Positions 11,657 through 34,381 of a stretch of DNA of 35,379 bases are shown in pieces. A program made the position numbers and the translations under genes. The DNA is from Clostridia bacterium (lineage in GTDB: Bacteria; Bacillota; DTU025): the NCBI GenBank assembly GCA_034926675.1, contig JAYFQW010000018.1:1-35379 (forward strand), in the 5' to 3' direction. The notes under the pieces are model-generated. The model worked only from the letters and a program-made list of their open reading frames with translations. It was not told the origin of the DNA and made no database searches. Each line of letters starts with the position of its first letter. Position 1 is the stretch's first letter.

Positions 11657-13939
11657 CTAGTTCTGAATGTACCAGTTCTGTATGATCCAGCCGAGGCCGT
11701 TGTCGTATCCGGAATCGAAGCTCTTGATGTTCTTCTTGGCGAAGTGGTTGGCCGGCGCCGCGACAAGGGGTATCACCGGCAGTTCCGTGGTCCACTGGAC
11801 CAAGTGCTTAACGTAGAGCTCGGTCTTAGCGGCTGGATCAAGAGTTGCGGCGGCCTTTCGGATGAGCCTGTCGTTCTCCGCGTTGATCCATCCCACCTGA
11901 TTGACTCCACCCCAGGCGTTATCGTCAGACGGCGTCAACTCCGAATCCCAGTAGTTCGCCGCCTCATCCGATACCCCGTAGCCCCATCCCACCAACGACA
12001 TGTCGAACTGTCTGTGAGGCATGAGGTCGCCGATGACTACGTTAGCCGGCTTGTTGTCGATTGTGATCGCGATGCCTACGTCCTTGAGCATCTTCTGGAT
12101 CAACTGTTCACTCATCTCCGTGTCTTTCGAGCCCGCAGTGCCAAGAAGGGTGTACTTGAACTTGACTCCGCCCTTCTCGAGTACGCCGTCCTTGCCCAGT
12201 TTCCATCCAGCCTCAGCCAAGAGAGCCTTGGCCTTTGCTGGATTGTAGGGGTACTTGGCCACCCGAGAATCTGCCAGAGCGTCGCGCATCATGTGCAGTG
12301 GAGTGATCCAGGCATCGCAGAGCAGGGCTTTGCCGGAGTATACTACGGTGTTGATCGCATTTCTATCGATCGCGTACATGATAGCCTGACGGACCTTGAT
12401 ATCCGAGAACGCCGCGTGCGGCTTTGAGAGGTTATTTGGATCCCAGAAGTTCAGGTACAGCAGGTCGGGCGCAACAGTTGGCGTGAAGCTCACGTTGAAC
12501 TGGTCTCCATGCTCCGATGCGAGTTTCAGAGCGTCACGCAAGGTGAGAGTGTACCGGCCGAAGTCTATGTCTCCCTTTATGACTGCCGCATTGACCACGC
12601 TGGAATCGGGGATTATCTTGATGAGTATCTTGTCAATGTTTGGCCGGCCCATATAGTAGCCGTCGAATGCCTCAAGGAGCACGTACTCGCCGCGCTTGTA
12701 CTCCTTAAGCTTGAACGGCCCGGACATAATGGGCTTGTTGGTCACTTCCTGAACGAACTTGTTCCAATCGCCGCTCTTCTTCGCCTCATTGTACAGCGGC
12801 TCGAATAGGTGCTTCGGCAACTGGAACCATCCGTAGTAGTACGAGTAGACTGATGAACCCAGGAACGCGCTGGAGTCCACCTTATCCAGGTAGATCTTGA
12901 ACGTGTACTTATCTAGAAGCTGGGCTTTTGTGACGTTCTTTTCGAAGTAGTTCGCCGAGACGGGCACATCTGTGTCCTGCATCACCTTGAGCTGGAACAG
13001 AGCGTCCTCCGCGGTGATGTCCTTGCCATCATGCCACTTCATGCCCTTGCGTACTTCAAAAGTGACTTCCATCTTTCCATCGCTGGCTATCTTGATCAGC
13101 CCGTTCTCGAGAGACGGAAGGCGCTTGATCATCCTCGGGAAGTAGAATCCGTCCTGATCGGATCCTGTATTGCCATCGCCGATGATGTTGCAGATGGTCC
13201 ACGTTGCTCCCGATGATGTTACTATCGTGTTGAATCCCGGGGGCTCTGCTGTGAAGGCAGTGACGATAGTGCCTCCACGCTTGGGCGGGTTGGCCATCAT
13301 GTATACGGCCTTCGCAACCTCGCGCCTGGTGGCTGCCTCTAGTGGCGCTGAGAGGCGCCCAAGGCGGTAGCCGAGTATCTGTCGATCAGATCTGTAGGCA
13401 AGCGTCATGGCGCCTACGGCATACGCCGGCACTTTCTCCTCATCATTTGCGGAAAGCACGGGCTCCTTTATGGAACTGGCTTCGCCCGCCAGGCCGAGCG
13501 CGTTGGTAGCCCAGACTGCCATGTCGGCGCGCTTCACGGGCGCCTGGGGGTCGAATTTCTTGGTGGACGGGACAGCAATCACATTCGCCTTGACCAAACC
13601 CTCAACATATGGATAGCTGGGATCTGACGCTTTGAGATCAGTGAAGCTAGGAGAGGCTGGTTTCACGGTCTGGATGCCTCGTGCCTTAGCCAGAACCGTA
13701 GCGAAGTCTGCGCGAGTGACCGTTTTGTCAGGTTCGAACACCTTGCCCTGCGTGGGCGCGAGCAGACCCTTGCTCACAACGAACTCAATGGCCGCGGCGT
13801 CCCGATCATCTGAAGCAATGTCCTGGGGAAGCACAGACGGAGCCGCATTCCCGGCAAGTGCACAGAGGACAAGAACCGACAGTGTCATGAGTGCGAGAAG
13901 CCATCGCGATAGGGCTTTTTGTCCGCGCACGGTATCCAT
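11657..13939 (-). CDS. SLH-anchored oligopeptide ABC solute-binding protein (family 5)
   Basis: A 760-residue exported protein. The ATG at 13939 follows AAGGAG at a 12-bp gap, and an upstream in-frame start at 14008 is less likely. Domains in order are a signal peptide (hydrophobic core LLALMTLSVLVLCALAG, cleaved near NAA), then three S-layer homology repeats over about residues 30-225. The repeats include FEPDKTVTRADFATVLAKA, FDPQAPVKRADMAVWATNAL and a third ending ATRREVAKAVYMM. A family 5 peptide-binding domain starts near residue 235 (RGGTIVTAF) and includes EVRKGMKWHDGKDITAEDA and VRQAIMYAIDRNAI. No lipobox is present, so the SLH domains replace the usual lipid anchor and tie the protein to the cell-wall polymer. 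It should deliver peptides to the OppBCDF proteins encoded around it. Confidence 0.95.
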   Translation of the reverse strand: MDTVRGQKALSRWLLALMTLSVLVLCALAGNAAPSVLPQDIASDDRDAAAIEFVVSKGLLAPTQGKVFEPDKTVTRADFATVLAKARGIQTVKPASPSFTDLKASDPSYPYVEGLVKANVIAVPSTKKFDPQAPVKRADMAVWATNALGLAGEASSIKEPVLSANDEEKVPAYAVGAMTLAYRSDRQILGYRLGRLSAPLEAATRREVAKAVYMMANPPKRGGTIVTAFTAEPPGFNTIVTSSGATWTICNIIGDGNTGSDQDGFYFPRMIKRLPSLENGLIKIASDGKMEVTFEVRKGMKWHDGKDITAEDALFQLKVMQDTDVPVSANYFEKNVTKAQLLDKYTFKIYLDKVDSSAFLGSSVYSYYYGWFQLPKHLFEPLYNEAKKSGDWNKFVQEVTNKPIMSGPFKLKEYKRGEYVLLEAFDGYYMGRPNIDKILIKIIPDSSVVNAAVIKGDIDFGRYTLTLRDALKLASEHGDQFNVSFTPTVAPDLLYLNFWDPNNLSKPHAAFSDIKVRQAIMYAIDRNAINTVVYSGKALLCDAWITPLHMMRDALADSRVAKYPYNPAKAKALLAEAGWKLGKDGVLEKGGVKFKYTLLGTAGSKDTEMSEQLIQKMLKDVGIAITIDNKPANVVIGDLMPHRQFDMSLVGWGYGVSDEAANYWDSELTPSDDNAWGGVNQVGWINAENDRLIRKAAATLDPAAKTELYVKHLVQWTTELPVIPLVAAPANHFAKKNIKSFDSGYDNGLGWIIQNWYIQN

Positions 13940-14074
13940 CCTATTCTTCATCTCCTTATCTAGTCTGCCAGTTGATAGCCGTAGCCGGCACTCCCATACA
14001 GAATCCACTACTCAGAGATCTTGTTGATCAGGCCGTGAAACACCCCCTCATACCCGTTCGGGGCCTCCCATAGC

Positions 14075-23710: not shown

Positions 23711-24661
23711 CTACTCCTGGGTCAGCCTTTTCAGCAGCTTGACCGCCTCTGTCTCGCTTACCTTCGCCAGTTCGTTGATGCACGCAACTACGGCGTCGGC
23801 GTCTCCGTTCATCAGGTGCGCATCGGCCAGTGATGAGTATGCCTTGAAATCGTCAGGGTCAAGCTTCAGACAGTTTCTGAACCAGTGAATCGCATCAGGT
23901 ATGACCGATGCGACCAACAAGTAGAAAAGACCTAGCTTGTAGCTGGTCATAGAGCATGACTCTGCAATGGGCTTGGCCTTTTCGGCGGCGGCTATCCCTT
24001 CCTCAGTGCGACCCATGCGGAACAGTGCGTGAGCCTGCCCGACAATGGCGCACCCGTGCACCTCTGGCATTGCCGCGGCAGTGTTGTAGGATGCGAGAGC
24101 TTTTGCGAATCGGTCTTGCGCCATGTAGCAATCGCCCAACGCTATCCGCGGCAGGGGATGAGAGGGATCGAGCTCAATGACTTTCTTGAACGCCTTGACC
24201 GCCTCATCGATATCGCCCCGGTTCGCGTTCATGGTTCCCAGGATGAAATAGGACGCCGGATAGGTTGGATCAGCCGTAATGGCCTCCTTCGCAGTTGTCA
24301 CGGCGTCGGAAGCATATCCAGTCTCCATAAAACCCTTGGCGATCTTGAGAAGCATGTCTGCGTTTCCTTTGAATGCGGCCCTGGCGATGTGCAGCATCAC
24401 TCGGGTGTCGCTGTCGTCGCGGGGTTTTCCTTTACGGTCTCTTGCCCCAGCATCTGCGACGCCTTTCTTCCCCCGCGAGCCCGCCCCGGGCCGTTTCTGC
24501 CCTTTCGAGCGCTCATGCATCAAGCCCACAAGGTCTTCAATTGCGGAATCGAGCGTGTTGGACGCCTGGGGATCAGCTCCAAAAGGCAATGACCCTGATC
24601 CCGCCTTTGGCAAGGCGGTTTCCCCTGTGCGCTTATGCTGGAGATCTCCTCTGTCCTTCAA
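23711..24661 (-). CDS. Tetratricopeptide repeat (TPR) protein
   Basis: A 316-residue protein starting at TTG (24661), with GGAGGTGGAG just upstream. An out-of-frame ATG three bases before it gives only a 10-codon frame. Residues 1-85 are low-complexity and charged (repeated KG, RG and DR). From about residue 88 there are at least five TPR-like helical pairs, the clearest being YPASYFILGTMNANRGDIDE followed by AVKAFKKVIELDPSHP. Later copies end LKLDPDDFKAYSSLADAHL. No signal peptide or membrane segment is seen, so a cytoplasmic scaffolding role is likely. Its partner is not evident. It converges on the YfcC gene. Confidence 0.8.
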   Translation of the reverse strand: MKDRGDLQHKRTGETALPKAGSGSLPFGADPQASNTLDSAIEDLVGLMHERSKGQKRPGAGSRGKKGVADAGARDRKGKPRDDSDTRVMLHIARAAFKGNADMLLKIAKGFMETGYASDAVTTAKEAITADPTYPASYFILGTMNANRGDIDEAVKAFKKVIELDPSHPLPRIALGDCYMAQDRFAKALASYNTAAAMPEVHGCAIVGQAHALFRMGRTEEGIAAAEKAKPIAESCSMTSYKLGLFYLLVASVIPDAIHWFRNCLKLDPDDFKAYSSLADAHLMNGDADAVVACINELAKVSETEAVKLLKRLTQE

Positions 24662-27081: not shown

Positions 27082-28827
27082 TCAAAATGCCTCTCCCTCT
27101 CCGCTAGTGAGGGCAACATAAGCGCACCTGGTCTTTCCGGCGTAGTCTCCGCTGCGGTCAAGTGCATATGCTCGACCGACTGCCGTTACGGCATCCCACT
27201 CGATCCCTGTTCCCACTTCCCTGTCGAGAACTGCGAGCAGGTCGGCAGCGCCCTGCGGAGGACTGCTCCTGCCATCCAACACCAGATGCAGGTTGGCGCG
27301 TCTGATGCCGTTGGCTTTGGCCGCCTCAAGCACCGCCACGCCTTCTCTGATGTTCCCGTGAGAACTCTTCTCCGAGAGCATCATTATAACATGAAGACTG
27401 CCTCCGGTGGACGTTATTTGCTCGAATCCACTTGCGAGAGCCGGGTTTGCAGCAAGGCCACAAGCCTCTACGGACTGGGCAATCCTCAGCTCATCCTGGG
27501 GCACTACTCGACCAGCGCCGAGTGTCAGGTGCCCGGTCTCGGAGTTTCCCGCTCGCCCGGCGGGGAGGCCCACGGCGAGCTCGGCAGCGGAGAGTGCTGT
27601 GTGCGGACAGTTCGACAGTATCCAGTCCATCACGGGAACCCTGGCCGCCGCTATGGGGTTCGTTGCGGGGTCGGCGACTCCGATGCCCCATCCATCTAGA
27701 ACAACAAGAATGCAGCGGTTCCAGGCTGCGTTGGAATGGAAAAGCACCTTGCCGTCCATCTCCTGCGGCGCAGGAATCCCCATCAGGGATAGAAGTGTGG
27801 GCGCCACATCAGACAGGGCGCCGTGTGCGGAATCGGCCGGCAGGAATTCCCCACTGTTAGCTATCCCACAGGACGCTCCACTGATTTCCCAATCCGCTTT
27901 CCCGCTCGCCTCTTCAATCGCCTCTCTGTCCGCCTCTCGCGTCGCTTCCTCGTCGATGCACGCGTTCTCCGTGCCAATCGCGTGGGCCTGTCGAGCCCGG
28001 CGGGCGTCAGTGCATGCTATTCTACCCTGCCACATGCCCGGCGCGATGAGTGCGAACGGTGCCTGAGCAGTGGTATGGCCGGTGTTCGTGGTTCCGTCGT
28101 CGTTTCTGAACCTTTCGAGCAATCCGTGGTCGGCGGTGACCGCCACAAGATAGCTGGCGGCGCTCGCGGCCTCGCATATTGCCCCCAGCGCTGAATCGAC
28201 CGCCTCCGCACATTTTATGTTCGCATCCCAATCATCTAGGTGTCCGATGATGTCTCCGGCTGCCAGGTTAACCAGGATGAAATCATGCTGCCCTGCATGG
28301 GCTGCATCTACCACTGCCGCAGCCACCTGCGCAGTGCTTGTCCCCGGCCTTGAAAGGAACTCCGATGATTTCGGGCTTGGCACTACCAGACGTTCCTCAC
28401 CGGCGAACGCTGCGGCTCGCCTCCCGTTGAAGAAGAAGGACACATGCGCCGCCTTCTCCGACTCTGCTACGCGCAGCTGCCTAAGCCCCGCCTTGCTCAG
28501 CACCTCGCCCATCGTCTGCTCTGGCTGGAGCGTAGGGAACACCGTAGGCAAGTATGCGAACTTCTCGTGGTATACCACAAATGGGATGAATGCCAGCCGC
28601 GGCATTCGAGATGCGTCGAATCCCTTGAAGACGGGATCGGTGAACGCCTCGGTGAGCTGGACCTCGCGGTCTCCTCGTCTGCAGCAGAAAACCACGCAGT
28701 CCCCATCATGTATCCTGCCTATCGCGATGCCTGAATCATATTTCACAAGCGGAGTCATCCAGTAGTCCATGGCTCCGGCCTGGTATCTCTTCCGAAGCGC
28801 CGCGGCTAGAAACCCGGTGTTTGCCAC
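27082..28827 (-). CDS. Circularly permuted cofactor-independent phosphoglycerate mutase
   Basis: A 581-residue protein in one frame. Residues about 1-366 match the C-terminal part of GpmI: GRIHDGDCVVF; AESEKAAHVSFFFNG; GDIIGH; VTADHG; NTGHTT; then LSDVAPTLLSLMG and MDGKVLF. After a short linker, residues about 371-581 match its N-terminal part: CILVVLDGWGIG; AVGLPAGRAGNSETGHL; the LVLDGRSSPP loop; and GRAYALDR. The new termini fall in a loop of the phosphotransferase domain, and the old N- and C-termini are joined. Metal and Ser ligands are all present: Asp192, His196, Asp233, His234, His251, Asp378 and Ser429 (nucleophile). Substrate residues Arg51, Arg54, Lys125, His490, Arg520, Arg552 and Arg558 are kept. 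The Asp that normally follows Arg520 is Ser521. Residues about 267-337 are a low-complexity insert. The start is GTG with GGGGGCG upstream. It should interconvert 2- and 3-phosphoglycerate or act on a related ester. Confidence 0.93.
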   Translation of the reverse strand: MANTGFLAAALRKRYQAGAMDYWMTPLVKYDSGIAIGRIHDGDCVVFCCRRGDREVQLTEAFTDPVFKGFDASRMPRLAFIPFVVYHEKFAYLPTVFPTLQPEQTMGEVLSKAGLRQLRVAESEKAAHVSFFFNGRRAAAFAGEERLVVPSPKSSEFLSRPGTSTAQVAAAVVDAAHAGQHDFILVNLAAGDIIGHLDDWDANIKCAEAVDSALGAICEAASAASYLVAVTADHGLLERFRNDDGTTNTGHTTAQAPFALIAPGMWQGRIACTDARRARQAHAIGTENACIDEEATREADREAIEEASGKADWEISGASCGIANSGEFLPADSAHGALSDVAPTLLSLMGIPAPQEMDGKVLFHSNAAWNRCILVVLDGWGIGVADPATNPIAAARVPVMDWILSNCPHTALSAAELAVGLPAGRAGNSETGHLTLGAGRVVPQDELRIAQSVEACGLAANPALASGFEQITSTGGSLHVIMMLSEKSSHGNIREGVAVLEAAKANGIRRANLHLVLDGRSSPPQGAADLLAVLDREVGTGIEWDAVTAVGRAYALDRSGDYAGKTRCAYVALTSGEGEAF

Positions 28828-28992: not shown

Positions 28993-30045
28993 CTATGGAT
29001 ACAGGAGACCCTTGCCTATTTTGAGATATGCACGTTCCCCTGGCTGGCACGCCCCGTCCAGCCCCGAGTGCACGCGAAGCAGGTCTTCTCCTAGCCTCAC
29101 TCTGTAGTCCATGGAGTTCCCGAGGAATATCCCCACTTCTACCTGGCACTCCAGACCGTCGTTTCGGTTCAGCGTGATATCCTCTGGCCTCACTGCCAAC
29201 ACACACTGACCGGAGGCGGCAACCTGACTCTCAACCTGGACCAGCATCCCATTTCTCAGCCGCACAGTGACCTGTCCATCTTCCAAGCCAAGGGCCTCGC
29301 ACTGGATGAAGTTCATCGTGCCGATGAAGTCCGCCACGAACTGCGTTGCTGGCTGCCTGTATATCTCGTCGGGAGGACCTTCCTGGATGATGACTCCTTT
29401 GTTCATCACTGCGACTCGATCCGACATGGCCATGGCCTCTACCTGGTCGTGTGTGACATATAGGATGGCTATGCCCGTCTTGCGCTGCAGATCCTTGAGT
29501 TCAAACCGCATCTGCTCCCGGAGCTTCGCATCCAGGTTGGAAAGTGGCTCATCAAGCAGCATGACCTCTGGGTCCATAGCGAGCGCGCGGCCAAGTGCGA
29601 CTCTCTGTTGCTGGCCGCCGGACAATTCCGATGGATAGCGTTTTCCGAGGCCGGTGAGTTCGAGCAGACCGAGGAGTTCCTCCGTTTTCGCCCGGGATCG
29701 CGCCTTGGTCCATCGAGCGAGCTTGAGAGGATATGATATGTTCTGTTCTACGGTCATGTGTGGCCACACCGCGTAGTTTTGGAACACCATTCCGATGCCG
29801 CGCCGCTCCGGCGGGCGCATGATATGCCTGGCAGGCGCAGTGACTAGCTCCTGGCCGATGTAGACCTCGCCTTGGGTGGGTTCCTCAAGGCCGGCCACAC
29901 AGCGTAATGTGGTCGTCTTGCCGCATCCGGAGGGACCCAGCAGAGAGAAAAACTCGTTCTTTCTGACTGTGAAGCCAACGTTGTCTACGGCGGCGAACGA
30001 ACCGAACATCTTGGAAAGGCCGATTACTCGGATTCTCTCATCCAA
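28993..30045 (-). CDS. ABC transporter ATPase, FbpC/AfuC/PotA type
   Basis: A 350-residue ATPase. The start is TTG at 30045, with GGAGGTGG 8 bp upstream; the overlapping ATG is out of frame. The Walker A motif is GPSGCGKTTT, the Q-loop VFQNYAVWPHMTV, the signature LSGGQQQRVALGRAL and Walker B VMLLDEPLSNLD. The switch His is in YVTHDQVEAMAM. The C-terminal TOBE-type domain runs from about residue 240 (FIGTMNFIQCE) and includes LAVRPEDITL. This class drives importers of ferric ion, polyamines, phosphonates, phosphate esters or sugars, and the ATPase alone does not tell which. It is 19 bp downstream of the permease gene. Confidence 0.94.
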   Translation of the reverse strand: MDERIRVIGLSKMFGSFAAVDNVGFTVRKNEFFSLLGPSGCGKTTTLRCVAGLEEPTQGEVYIGQELVTAPARHIMRPPERRGIGMVFQNYAVWPHMTVEQNISYPLKLARWTKARSRAKTEELLGLLELTGLGKRYPSELSGGQQQRVALGRALAMDPEVMLLDEPLSNLDAKLREQMRFELKDLQRKTGIAILYVTHDQVEAMAMSDRVAVMNKGVIIQEGPPDEIYRQPATQFVADFIGTMNFIQCEALGLEDGQVTVRLRNGMLVQVESQVAASGQCVLAVRPEDITLNRNDGLECQVEVGIFLGNSMDYRVRLGEDLLRVHSGLDGACQPGERAYLKIGKGLLYP

Positions 30046-30064: not shown

Positions 30065-31738
30065 CTAGATCCCGATCTGCCCGCGAGACAGCTTGCGTAC
30101 GATGGTGTTGCCTGCCAGGATCACGAGGAGCACGACGGTGGACAGGGCCGCTGCGATCTGTGTGTAGCCGGCGTCCTGCATGTTGTAAATGACTACGCCG
30201 ATGGTCTCCGATCCTTGCGACCACAGCAGGACTGACATGGTTAGTTCGCGGAATGCAGGCATGAACACCAGCGCCCAGCCAGCCACAAGGCCCGGCTTGA
30301 TCAGGGGAAGCACCACATCGCGCATGCTCTCCATCCAGCCTGCGCCTGATATGCGGGCGGCCTCCTCAAGGGAGATATGCACCTGTTGAAGTGTGGCATT
30401 GGTCGTTCTGATTGAGAACGGCATGTAGCGTACTAGATACGCCGCAAGCATCACCCAAATAGTGCCATATAGGACCACTGGAGGGCGCGACCAGGCGAGT
30501 ATCATCGCAATCGCCACCATGGTGCAGGGCACAGCATATGGTATGGTGCCTATGAAGTCGAGCAGCCTGGCGCTTGGCATCCGCGCCCGGAGCGACAGGT
30601 AGGAGACGAGTGTTCCCACGGCCATGGTTATTGTGGCTGCGCCAGACGCAAGCAGAAGGCTGTTTTTGAACGCCCGCGTGGCCATGGACAGCTGGGAGAT
30701 GTACCGGTAGTGGTTCAACGTCATGCTCTGCAGGGTGAGGGGCGCACCCCAGTATTTGAGGAATGAGGTGACTATCATCGATGTTAGTGGCACTACTCCC
30801 GCGAAGAACGCTACGGCTGCTACGGCGATGAATACCGGGGTCCTCCAACCGCCTAGGTTGAGAGTCTGAGGCCTCACGCTCTTGCCCGCGATAACCGTGT
30901 ATCGGTGCTGGCTTTTCTCGAATCTCCTTTGAAGCAGCAAAGCCGCGCCCGACACCACCGCAAGGACGATCGACATGGCGGCTGCCAGTGGCATGTCGGG
31001 TATTGAAAGCGCGGAGTAGATCCGCGTAGTAAGCACGAAGAATCTGGCCCTGAACCCTAGAAGGGCGGGGATGCCGAAGTTTGATATGCATCCCACGAAG
31101 GCGAGAAGCCCGCCGGCTATTACGGCAGGGGTTGCCAGTGGGAGCGTAACATCTAGGAGCGTGCGAAGCGGACCAGCCCCCGACATCCGCGCCGCTTCCT
31201 CAAGGCTCGTGTCGATCCTTCCCAGTGCGCCGCTGACAGTGATGAATACAACGGGGAATTGGTATACTGCCAGCACAATGATTACACCTGCGGCGCTGTA
31301 TATGTTCCACGGCGCCGCCGTTCCGCCGCTCAGCTGGGTGAACAGCTTCGAGACGTACCCGACCGGTCCGAATAGCTGAGCCCACGCGATGGCCCCGATG
31401 AAAGGCGGAATGCCGTACGGGAGTGTGAGGAGCGTGCGAAGCCACGATTTTCCCGGGATATCGGTTCTCACCACAATCATCGCGAGGAGTGTGCCCGCAG
31501 CCACGCACACAATCGTGCTGGCCACCGACACCCACACGGAGTTCCAAAGGGCACGGCGATTAGCCGCCTCCCCGAATACTCTTGCGTAGCTTGCCATCGT
31601 GAGCCCGCCTTTGGAGGCGAAGCTCTTCATGACGACCATGGAGATTGGATAGATGATTACTACAATGAAGAAGGCAGCCACTGCTGCGAGGAACACGTGC
31701 CTCGCATCGAAGGAACGCCCGGGAGACTTGATGCTCAA
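30065..31738 (-). CDS. Fused two-domain ABC permease, FbpB/AfuB type
   Basis: About 557 residues with two permease domains of about six helices each. Each domain has its own EAA coupling loop: SLEEAARMSGAGPLRTLLDV near residue 175-195, and SLEEAARISGAGWMESMRDV near 463-482. Duplicated single-chain permeases are usual for the ferric/hexose-phosphate/phosphonate branch. I set the start at TTG 31738 because AAGGGGAGG ends 6 bp upstream. ATG at 31744 would sit directly on that site, and ATG at 31759 lacks one. The partners are the binding protein upstream and the ATPase downstream. The transported substrate is inferred from neighbours to be a small phosphorylated compound rather than iron; this is uncertain. 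Confidence 0.92.
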   Translation of the reverse strand: MSIKSPGRSFDARHVFLAAVAAFFIVVIIYPISMVVMKSFASKGGLTMASYARVFGEAANRRALWNSVWVSVASTIVCVAAGTLLAMIVVRTDIPGKSWLRTLLTLPYGIPPFIGAIAWAQLFGPVGYVSKLFTQLSGGTAAPWNIYSAAGVIIVLAVYQFPVVFITVSGALGRIDTSLEEAARMSGAGPLRTLLDVTLPLATPAVIAGGLLAFVGCISNFGIPALLGFRARFFVLTTRIYSALSIPDMPLAAAMSIVLAVVSGAALLLQRRFEKSQHRYTVIAGKSVRPQTLNLGGWRTPVFIAVAAVAFFAGVVPLTSMIVTSFLKYWGAPLTLQSMTLNHYRYISQLSMATRAFKNSLLLASGAATITMAVGTLVSYLSLRARMPSARLLDFIGTIPYAVPCTMVAIAMILAWSRPPVVLYGTIWVMLAAYLVRYMPFSIRTTNATLQQVHISLEEAARISGAGWMESMRDVVLPLIKPGLVAGWALVFMPAFRELTMSVLLWSQGSETIGVVIYNMQDAGYTQIAAALSTVVLLVILAGNTIVRKLSRGQIGI

Positions 31739-31922
31739 CGGCATCCTCCCCTTCCGCATCTACTCTTTGGCCGCGATGGATGGCTGCTCTTGGGCAATAC
31801 CATACAAACAGCCAAGACATGAAACACACCAGAGCAGGGGATGGCTGGCCTGGGCACGGCGGGGCGCGCGGGGGTGTGCCTGTGCGAAGGTGTGAGTTTG
31901 GGATAGGGGCTGGGGAGATGAG

Positions 31923-32020: not shown

Positions 32021-33001
32021 CTACTTGAGCATTATCTTCTCGAAGGTCTCCCTGATCTCAGTGGTATGCGCGGCTGCCCATTCGAACGGTATCGGCATTG
32101 CTACGATCTTGTCGGCGGTCGGCATGCCCGGAGGCGGCGCCACGTCGGCTCTTACGGGTACTACTCCGTCGCGCACCATGAGTTCCTGCCCCTTCTTGGA
32201 GAGCAGGAAATCCACAAATGCCCTGGCGCCCACGGCGTTCTTGGTGTTAGCTATTATCGCTATGGGGCTGGGGATTGATATGGCGCCATCCTCCGGCCAG
32301 ATTATCTCCACTGGGGCGCCGGTCTTTTTGAGGTCGAGCACCATGTAATCCAGCACCATACATGCGGCGAACTCGCCTGCTCCGAGGCCGCGAGATACGT
32401 CGGAGTTGCCGCGGAGGACGAGCATTCCGCTCTTCCGTGCGCGCTCAAACCAGCTCCAGCCGTTCTGCTTGTTGACGAATGTTGCGGTCACCATGAAATT
32501 GGAACCGGAGTAGAGGGGGTCGGCCATCGCCGCCTTGCGCCCGAACCCGATCAGGTCATCCCATTTGCGCGGGGCAGCGCCGGGCTTCACAAGGTTGGTG
32601 TTGATGCCTATGATCATGTTGATCATCCGGGCAGCGGTGAAGTAGCCGTCTGGATCCTTGAGGTCGTTCGGGACCTTGGCGGCCTCCGGCGACTTGTAGG
32701 CCAAGAGCAGACCCTTGTCGCGGAAGGTGTAGTAGCTAGCCGCATCCGCAAGCCACACCAGATCCGCCTTCACGCCGCCTGTCTCCTGTTCGGCCCAGAT
32801 CTTATTGACAACATCGGTGCTTCCAGCCCTGAACACTTCGACTTTGATCCCCTTGTTGGCGCGCGTGAACTCGTCGGCGAAAGCAGTGGCAAGCTCCAGC
32901 GGAACGGAGGTATACAGAAGCAGCTTGGAATCAGCGAATACTCCCGTCGAAACGGATAGGAGAATGGCCAAAGCCACGAGACTCATGGTGATTCTTCTCA
33001 T
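32021..33001 (-). CDS. Extracellular solute-binding protein, AfuA/FbpA-like family
   Basis: A 326-residue exported protein with a short signal peptide (RRITMSLVALAILLSVSTGV, cleavage near VFA-DS) and no lipobox Cys. Conserved features of the family are LLLYTSVPLELATAFADEF, the VEVFRAGSTDVVNKI segment, KADLVWLADAASYYTF and GLGAGEFAACMVLDYM. The block IIWPEDGAISIPSPIAIIAN follows, then the C-terminal ARAFVDFLLSKKGQEL. Ferric-binding FbpA proteins have a tandem Tyr pair after the GE(F/V) block; here that place reads VLDYMVLDL, so ferric iron is unlikely. The family also includes binders of hexose phosphates and aminoethylphosphonate. GGGGAGG lies about 10 bp before the ATG. Gene order with cyclic diphosphoglycerate synthetase and a phosphoglycerate mutase suggests a phosphorylated C3 acid as ligand (inference). 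Confidence 0.88.
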   Translation of the reverse strand: MRRITMSLVALAILLSVSTGVFADSKLLLYTSVPLELATAFADEFTRANKGIKVEVFRAGSTDVVNKIWAEQETGGVKADLVWLADAASYYTFRDKGLLLAYKSPEAAKVPNDLKDPDGYFTAARMINMIIGINTNLVKPGAAPRKWDDLIGFGRKAAMADPLYSGSNFMVTATFVNKQNGWSWFERARKSGMLVLRGNSDVSRGLGAGEFAACMVLDYMVLDLKKTGAPVEIIWPEDGAISIPSPIAIIANTKNAVGARAFVDFLLSKKGQELMVRDGVVPVRADVAPPPGMPTADKIVAMPIPFEWAAAHTTEIRETFEKIMLK

Positions 33002-33037: not shown

Positions 33038-34381
33038 TTACCTGGCAGCGCTGAACTCCCGCATGCACTTGCGGGCGAGGGCAAGCACCTCCTCATCAAG
33101 ATGATCGCTTTCGCTGATTGGGATGGGTTCGTTGTCCATGTAGATCACTGGGTAGCCTTGGCCCAGCCCCCAGCTGGTCACCACATCCACGGCCGCAGCC
33201 TTCAGTTCGGTGACTACAGCATCCGGTTTGAGCGCCTCGAACCGCGCTAGGTCCTGCCGGAGAAGCGGCCGGTTGGACAGGCTGCAACTCACTCCCACAA
33301 CTGTGCAGCCATAGTGCTTCTCGAGATAGCCAGACACCACATCCGCCATGATCTTTGGGGTGGTGAGTGTGACCACGATTCTCTTTCCGGAGATGTCGCC
33401 CAGTGGACGCGGGCGGAATATAGTTTTCACCATGCGCACTTCTGGGCTTATCCCATGGATGGCCTCTTCCATCTGCTGGACTTTGGTTTCATCCGCGATG
33501 GGGCTTTCGCACATAGTGAGGATTATCAGGTTGGACGTGAGCACTCGGTAGGGGCCAAGGTACGATCTGAGATAGTCGATGGGCTGGTGTGCTCCGACTA
33601 CCAGTATCCTGGCGTCGGTATGCACTGACGGTATCGTTGAACCGCTTCCCTCGAATACTACGATATCAGCGTCCACCTTCTCTGAAAGCAGAGCGCCTTT
33701 CTCCACATTTGAGGTGAATGTCTGTCCTGACATTCCGCCTCCGCACCGCCTGCATCCGATGGTAGTGACACGGGATGTCAGGGCATCCTCGAAATGGTCG
33801 GACGATGCATGCCGTCCCTGCTTCGACACTGACATCAGGTATTCAGGAGTAATGTTGAGATCTGTTCCCTGTATTAGCTCAGGCTCGGCTGGCCCGCCGC
33901 GTCCCATCGTCACGACCACCGGCCTGAATTCGTGGGCAAGCGTTCTTGCTACGAAGCCGCCAACTGCGGTTTTCCCGATCCGTTTGCCAGTGCCAACTAC
34001 CGACATGCTAGGCCGGCTGACCCTTGTGGCCTGCATAGGAGGTGTGAATCGAAAGTCAGCGCCTAAGTAGGCAACTCCGTGCGCCAGCACCACCGATGCG
34101 ATGGAGAAGCGCTCCCTGTACCCGACTACCGGCTCGTCTGACAGGTCAACGACCTCGTCGGGATGATACTGTTCAATTGCTTCCGCAATCGCTTCGAGAT
34201 AGTCGGGCTTTCGGACCACGGGCACTCCGATTTTCGCGAAGTCGGCATCGGAACCGATTTTCTCAGTCCCTCCGATGAAAACCGCCGCCATTATGTCGCG
34301 ATCTGTGCTGAGTTCCTTGATGGCATCGTGGGTGACCGCAGGGTAATGCTCGCCATCGGTAAGGACGATTGATTTCACCAT
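33038..34381 (-). CDS. Cyclic 2,3-diphosphoglycerate synthetase (cPGS family)
   Basis: A 447-residue cytoplasmic protein. The N-terminal domain opens IVLTDGEHYPAVTHDAI and continues AAVFIGGTEKIG and VVDLSDEPVVGYRERF, the signature of cyclic 2,3-diphosphoglycerate synthetase as known from Methanothermus fervidus and annotated in some bacteria. A P-loop follows at residues 130-138 (GTGKRIGKT), then VVVTMGRGGPAEPELI, and IGCRRCGGGMSGQTF with a Cys pair. DIVVFEGSGSTIPSV comes later. The enzyme uses ATP to close 2,3-diphosphoglycerate into the cyclic trianhydride. No 2-phosphoglycerate kinase gene, the usual source of its substrate in methanogens, is in the window. GAAGGTGG lies 5 bp before the ATG. 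It sits 18 bp after the regulator gene and 36 bp before the binding-protein gene. The family call is firm; the reaction in this organism is inferred. Confidence 0.88.
   Translation of the reverse strand: MVKSIVLTDGEHYPAVTHDAIKELSTDRDIMAAVFIGGTEKIGSDADFAKIGVPVVRKPDYLEAIAEAIEQYHPDEVVDLSDEPVVGYRERFSIASVVLAHGVAYLGADFRFTPPMQATRVSRPSMSVVGTGKRIGKTAVGGFVARTLAHEFRPVVVTMGRGGPAEPELIQGTDLNITPEYLMSVSKQGRHASSDHFEDALTSRVTTIGCRRCGGGMSGQTFTSNVEKGALLSEKVDADIVVFEGSGSTIPSVHTDARILVVGAHQPIDYLRSYLGPYRVLTSNLIILTMCESPIADETKVQQMEEAIHGISPEVRMVKTIFRPRPLGDISGKRIVVTLTTPKIMADVVSGYLEKHYGCTVVGVSCSLSNRPLLRQDLARFEALKPDAVVTELKAAAVDVVTSWGLGQGYPVIYMDNEPIPISESDHLDEEVLALARKCMREFSAAR

Follow-up and report, generated by a model that had tools for sequence, protein, structure and literature searches.

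A circularly permuted GpmI-like protein of Bacillota, encoded in an operon with a homologue of archaeal cDPG synthetase

Introduction

Why would a bacterium that possesses an ordinary cofactor-independent phosphoglycerate mutase (iPGM, GpmI) also encode one whose two parts stand in swapped order, and what might such a protein do at the end of an operon for an importer and a homologue of cyclic 2,3-diphosphoglycerate (cDPG) synthetase? This question is raised by a 35,379-nucleotide stretch of DNA from a Clostridia bacterium (contig JAYFQW010000018.1 of assembly GCA_034926675.1), hereafter the window, in which a first-pass annotation made from the letters alone had proposed a naturally permuted GpmI. 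In canonical iPGM, the phosphotransferase domain is inserted into the phosphatase domain, which contains both termini. iPGM paralogues have been reported as rare, and the permuted form is not mentioned in the same survey of bacterial phosphoglycerate mutases (PMC2964296); no permuted phosphoglycerate mutase was found in the openly licensed full texts searched. The second partner of interest, cDPG, occurs as a solute in several methanogens, Methanobrevibacter and Methanothermobacter among them (PMC1224877), and has been described from archaea only (PMC10690619). The cDPG synthetase of Methanothermus fervidus is a reversible enzyme that prefers synthesis but can also produce ATP from cDPG, and the Methanothermobacter enzyme has been reported as irreversible (PMC1224877).

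In this work, we describe the permuted gene, its relatives and its neighbourhoods, and weigh a possible role of its product in the use of cDPG.

Results

Order of the parts and predicted fold

The swapped arrangement within a single frame of 581 codons was seen by Pfam, TIGR01307 and PDB matches alike (Table 1). In Pfam, the Metalloenzyme domain came first and was followed by iPGM_N, of which the first 130 positions matched residues 449-579, while residues 372-578, 35-264 and 335-363 corresponded to positions 19-223, 254-484 and 491-519 of PDB 5vpu, respectively. The TIGR01307 equivalog cut-off (330.65 bits) was exceeded with 376.9 bits, a value summed over three stretches in swapped order, among them residues 9-264 matching profile positions 215-468; since this cut-off can be passed irrespective of how the parts are ordered, automatic annotation hides the permutation. 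Compared by BLAST with the canonical GpmI of a relative, the protein as encoded aligned in three pieces (E 1e-52, 2e-34 and 3e-6), and moving the N-terminal part to the front turned these into one alignment of about 500 residues (4-505 to 8-511; 39% identity, 308 bits, E 2e-103), which is the outcome that the first-pass annotation had named as support for its proposal. Likewise, two pieces against the canonical GpmI of the same genome became one (E 4e-101, 37% identity). The GTG start fits the N-terminal ends of relatives in the alignment.

Table 1. Features of the permuted gene and of its operon in the window
Feature	Position	Strand	Remarks
Circularly permuted GpmI-like protein, 581 aa	27082..28827	minus	GTG start; last operon gene
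Canonical C-terminal part, now first	27739..28827	minus	Residues 1-363 (canonical residue ~213 through the C-terminus)
Linker HSNAAWN joining the old C- and N-termini	27718..27738	minus	Residues 364-370
Canonical N-terminal part, now last	27085..27717	minus	Residues 371-581 (D12, S62, H123, R153, Ser for D154, R185, R191)
Extra stretch of about 60 residues	27829..28020	minus	Residues ~270-332, this copy only; limits approximate
ABC transporter ATPase (PhnT2/FbpC-like)	28993..30045	minus	
Fused double ABC permease (PhnU2-like)	30065..31759	minus	
Solute-binding protein	32021..33001	minus	Closest solved structures: pyridoxal-5-phosphate-binding protein, Fe3+-type periplasmic binding proteins
cDPG synthetase homologue, 447 aa, full length	33038..34381	minus	8oru, E 6.5e-133
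GntR regulator, 140 aa	34400..34822	minus	About 120 UTRA residues missing in frame; relatives 260-265 aa

The break falls close to position 213 of the canonical protein, in a loop flanked by the helix that ends with AYxALVxGEG and the one that leads to RGETDEF; the new termini are therefore located in the phosphotransferase-domain loop after the GRxYAxDR block, as had been proposed, about 20 residues past it. The linker of about seven residues was found as described, and across the permuted copies the old termini are joined by 6-9 variable residues. The AlphaFold2 model of the window protein, built from 48 aligned rows, reached a pLDDT of 90.5 and a pTM of 0.87, and the sole segment below pLDDT 50, predicted as disordered, comprised residues 284-324 within the extra stretch. 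When this model was compared with the PDB by Foldseek, the significant matches were iPGM structures only, the best of them covered along about 60-70% of their length with TM scores by target of up to 0.49, a partial coverage expected from a sequential aligner applied to a permuted fold.

Distribution and age of the permuted proteins

Searching 398 genomes of the phylum with a profile of permuted proteins yielded a single match spanning the junction in each of 12 genomes (667-962 bits); the copy in one of these, genome G006, is truncated at a contig end. Canonical-order matches reached at most 278 bits among the matches listed and ended near the junction. Further copies came from the classes of G059 and G072 (in G422, G446, G447 and G418, and a partial one in G435), and a near-exact peptide scan of genome contigs found two near relatives. 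The homologues sought to verify the proposal thus amount to 15 full-length open frames, the copy of G006 being left out, all with the same order and breakpoint and spread over seven family-level groups of one phylum. In each of the 15, the C-terminal part precedes the N-terminal one, contrary to the canonical domain order of GpmI. Among the carriers is Bacillota bacterium AS02xzSISU_21 (G386, or L033), a metagenome-assembled genome from biogas reactors with 32% abundance in one reactor (PMC7038595).

The permuted proteins formed one clade on a single branch with SH-aLRT support of 100, both with 11 and then with 15 permuted sequences in a tree with 41 canonical ones, and close pairs displayed a dN/dS of about 0.11 (0.074/0.66 for G059/G133), as under purifying selection. 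The longest exact DNA word common to the permuted gene and the canonical gpmI of its own genome is 12 bases, so the permutation is not recent. Together with the confident fold, the shared order and breakpoint in 15 proteins of one clade under purifying selection strongly support a natural circular permutation and, judged from sequence, the permuted GpmI is an old, single-origin side-family of iPGM.

A misassembly is ruled out by the recurrence of the same order and breakpoint in independent genomes. A canonical-order version broken at the junction was looked for in related genomes and none was found; the canonical GpmI copies there are not allelic versions but distantly related paralogues, separate from the permuted gene, and the permuted protein and the canonical copy of its own genome share about 37% identity. 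Viral contigs gave no match to the permuted GpmI, plasmids gave partial matches only, with less than 60% identity and a query coverage under 80% throughout, and a phage collection gave 21 weak ones, the best 2 of the 21 being in canonical order. Two further loci were observed. The permuted gene of Firmicutes bacterium UBA6811 (L034, 2352-3089) seems frame-shifted, possibly as a pseudogene or through a sequencing error, and a genome that lacks the operon encodes 61 residues resembling the N-terminal part of the permuted GpmI (L146, G001:C106, contig 24102-24284; 57 bits), perhaps a remnant.

Active site

The active site was compared between the 15 permuted and 41 canonical proteins, with the numbering of the Geobacillus stearothermophilus enzyme, and the residues other than the metal ligands, Asp154 included, were given the roles commonly ascribed to them in iPGM. 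Identity in all proteins of both sets was found for 14 of the 15 residues checked. These include the seven metal and nucleophile residues (D12, S62, D403, H407, D444, H445 and H462), all of them kept as the first-pass annotation had stated, and seven of the eight substrate residues (H123, R153, R185, R191, R261, R264 and K336), of which it had claimed that most were retained. The exception is D154, replaced by Ser in 15/15 permuted proteins and in 0/41 canonical ones, which sets the permuted proteins apart from the substrate-residue pattern of GpmI. The metal ligands agree with those of the Caenorhabditis elegans structure (PMC5382265).

Further pocket changes are fixed in the same manner (15/15 against 0/41), namely H128E, W195Y, E231Y, N259C, F260R and N446L, F260R providing an extra Arg just before Arg261; additionally, all of the 11 permuted proteins compared at these positions shared G121S, V122S and S124G, and the position of D192 holds Ser in 13 and Gly in 2. 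The switched residues were not significantly nearer to catalytic residues in the sequence (12/16, versus 35/64 of the unchanged columns, p = 0.17). A pocket that has lost an acid and gained an arginine could favour a substrate bearing one more phosphate.

Other phosphoglycerate mutases of the hosts

In the genome of the window, contig 18 carries the permuted gene and contig 23 a canonical GpmI. Beside the permuted gene, a canonical GpmI was present in G000, G002, G005, G006, G009 and G072, and ApgM in G059 and G101; the His_Phos_1 search was too broad to reveal a cofactor-dependent enzyme. The permuted GpmI is not the sole phosphoglycerate mutase of its host, nor is it the ordinary mutase of the cell. 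On account of this other enzyme beside it and of the fixed pocket changes, an altered substrate or reaction appears more likely than plain interconversion of 3PG and 2PG. The view of the first-pass annotation that this is a working enzyme is supported as regards the retained catalytic residues and is not supported in the sense of a plain GpmI.

The operon and other neighbourhoods

The operon is ordered as GntR/UTRA regulator, cDPG synthetase homologue (443-454 aa), solute-binding protein, permease, ATPase and permuted GpmI. This order was found in the window, in the own-class relatives G002 and G009, in pieces in G005, G006 and G007, and in a group formed by G059, G133 and G386, the operon of the latter beginning after the regulator because the contig starts there. 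The gap before the permuted gene is -4 to 59 bp in relatives and 165 bp in the window. The regulator of the window has lost its UTRA effector residues through an exact in-frame deletion, with the DNA-binding domain and the last residues remaining. All importer subunits scored below the curated cut-offs (PhnS2, 105 against 393 bits; PhnT2, 358 against 458; PhnU2, 204 against 593), which places the system outside the PhnSTUV2 aminoethylphosphonate importers. In G005, a second, divergent set of solute-binding protein, permease and ATPase of the same families adjoins the permuted gene (L038, 2795-7379). Elsewhere in the window, an oligopeptide-binding protein with an S-layer homology domain is encoded at 11657-14008 on the minus strand.

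The synthetase homologue had no match in Pfam or NCBIfam, and its alignment with the structure 8oru covers residues 3-443. The substrate- and nucleotide-binding residues named for cDPG synthetase, E45/K46 and the P-loop K145/R146 (PMC10690619), are conserved as E40/K41 and K133/R134, as are the residues of the GxGKRIGKT motif. Strong matches to cDPG synthetase occurred in 8 of the 398 genomes, seven of which carry the permuted gene; in the eighth (G007), 72% complete, the contig ends in the ATPase gene of the operon. No cDPG synthetase was found on plasmids. Furthermore, none of 13 genomes contained a 2-phosphoglycerate kinase above the cut-off, so that these genomes lack the enzyme known to supply 2,3-diphosphoglycerate (2,3-DPG) for the synthesis of cDPG.

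About half of the permuted copies do not adjoin a cDPG synthetase. In one genus, the permuted gene occurs in five genomes, next to a RapZ homologue in four with enough contig and next to a phosphoglucomutase in four, and in G447 both genes lie near it. In G446, its neighbour is a predicted membrane protein, and a gene resembling a regulator lies upstream; in G435, it stands by sugar-type ABC genes, and in G418 among genes without evident link. Since so many copies lie away from cDPG synthetase, cDPG by itself cannot account for the activity of the family; the enzyme class extends beyond the cDPG operon, and its activity has to be explicable in the absence of that operon.

Discussion

The permuted protein resembles canonical iPGM (PDB 1ejj, 1o98, 5vpu) in its two domains, metal ligands, Ser62 and substrate residues, with 37-39% identity along a full-length alignment once un-permuted, and by its domain content and chemistry it probably works like iPGM. 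In contrast to canonical iPGM, its parts are swapped with new termini in the phosphotransferase domain, Asp154 is replaced by Ser, Asn259 by Cys and Asn446 by Leu, an extra Arg stands at 260, other changes are fixed as well, and the protein forms a separate clade accessory to another phosphoglycerate mutase. In the permuted form, a short linker connects the native ends, and new ends have opened in the phosphotransferase-domain loop. As it retains the fold, the two metal sites and the serine that accepts the phosphoryl group, the enzyme very probably still forms phosphoserine and moves a phosphoryl group. A precedent by annotation for an iPGM relative with a different phosphorus-group transfer is PhpG (NF038358), although its similarity is very weak (19 bits in one permuted copy) and PhpG is not permuted as far as known.

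From the operon structure and the families of its products, we infer, with a probability of roughly one half, that the operon serves cDPG uptake and breakdown. The ABC importer would take up cDPG released by methanogens, the synthetase homologue would act in reverse, with ring opening coupled to the formation of ATP from ADP and Pi, and the permuted enzyme may remove or shift one phosphate of 2,3-DPG, yielding 2- or 3-phosphoglycerate that the canonical GpmI and enolase of the cell could then use. The catabolic direction is favoured by the binding-protein importer, the lack of a 2-phosphoglycerate kinase and the reversible M. fervidus synthetase; the biogas-reactor origin of one operon host also counts for the proposal. 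The neighbourhoods without cDPG genes, the synthesis-preferring or irreversible archaeal enzymes, the shortened regulator of the window and the lack of a significant proximity of the switched residues to catalytic ones count against the proposal as a whole. The synthetase homologue is similar to the archaeal enzyme (PDB 8ork/8oru) in length and in its E-K, P-loop K-R and Walker residues, and differs in being bacterial and in sitting in an operon that has an importer and lacks a 2-phosphoglycerate kinase. The importer shares binding-protein, fused permease and ATPase families and gene order with PhnSTUV2, AfuA and P5PA-type systems, yet lies far below the PhnSTUV2 cut-offs, and its ligand is putative. 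A more far-reaching version, which we put forward tentatively, is that methanogen-associated bacteria have a dedicated cDPG salvage with the permuted iPGM as a 2,3-DPG phosphatase or phosphotransferase, and that the whole clade handles bisphosphates.

Other explanations account for part of these observations. A competent 3PG/2PG mutase retained as a second copy, its permutation and pocket changes being neutral, would be in keeping with the TIGR01307 score and the 14 retained active-site residues; we nevertheless consider such an ordinary isozyme unlikely, as every permuted protein, and no canonical one, has changes at Asp154 and at several positions of the pocket, another phosphoglycerate mutase exists in the genomes checked, and iPGM paralogues are reportedly rare (PMC2964296). 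It is likewise rather unlikely that the importer serves a different phosphate ester or phosphonate (a sugar phosphate, pyridoxal phosphate or an aminoethylphosphonate-like compound), on which the permuted enzyme would act as phosphatase or phosphotransferase: this would leave unexplained the synthetase homologue conserved in the same operon, even though the transporter subunits resemble PhnSUT2, the binding protein resembles a pyridoxal-phosphate-binding protein, and other permuted copies lie by phosphoglucomutase, glycerophosphodiesterase-like or sugar-type ABC genes.

The opposite direction, in which cDPG is made as a protective solute from 2,3-DPG that the permuted enzyme would generate by phosphoryl transfer between phosphoglycerates, is quite improbable. 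The synthetase homologue is present and well conserved, and a phosphoserine enzyme could in principle hand its phosphoryl group to a phosphoglycerate; however, the solute-binding protein among the three transporter genes marks an importer, the 13 genomes have no known 2,3-DPG-making kinase, and cDPG is described from archaea only (PMC10690619). As for an assembly artefact or a decaying rearranged copy, the extra stretch, the shortened regulator and the apparently frame-shifted UBA6811 copy might be read that way, but the 15 open frames of common order and breakpoint from many independent genomes, the purifying selection in close pairs and a longest exact word of 12 bases with the own canonical gpmI reduce its probability to a negligible level.

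Taken together, the permuted GpmI is a genuine and somewhat unexpected variant of an enzyme that is very well known, and the cDPG salvage proposal offers for it a biochemical hypothesis that is specific but unproven. It would represent a naturally occurring circular permutation, old and fixed, within an enzyme family central to glycolysis, and the two forms, permuted and canonical, exist in the same cells; such a pair allows one to ask whether the moved termini altered the hinge motion that iPGM requires, and provides a route to asking how a mutase becomes another phosphoryl-transfer enzyme. If the proposed catabolism of cDPG is true, bacteria would consume a solute known so far from archaea, which would bear on how carbon and phosphate are exchanged in anaerobic digesters.
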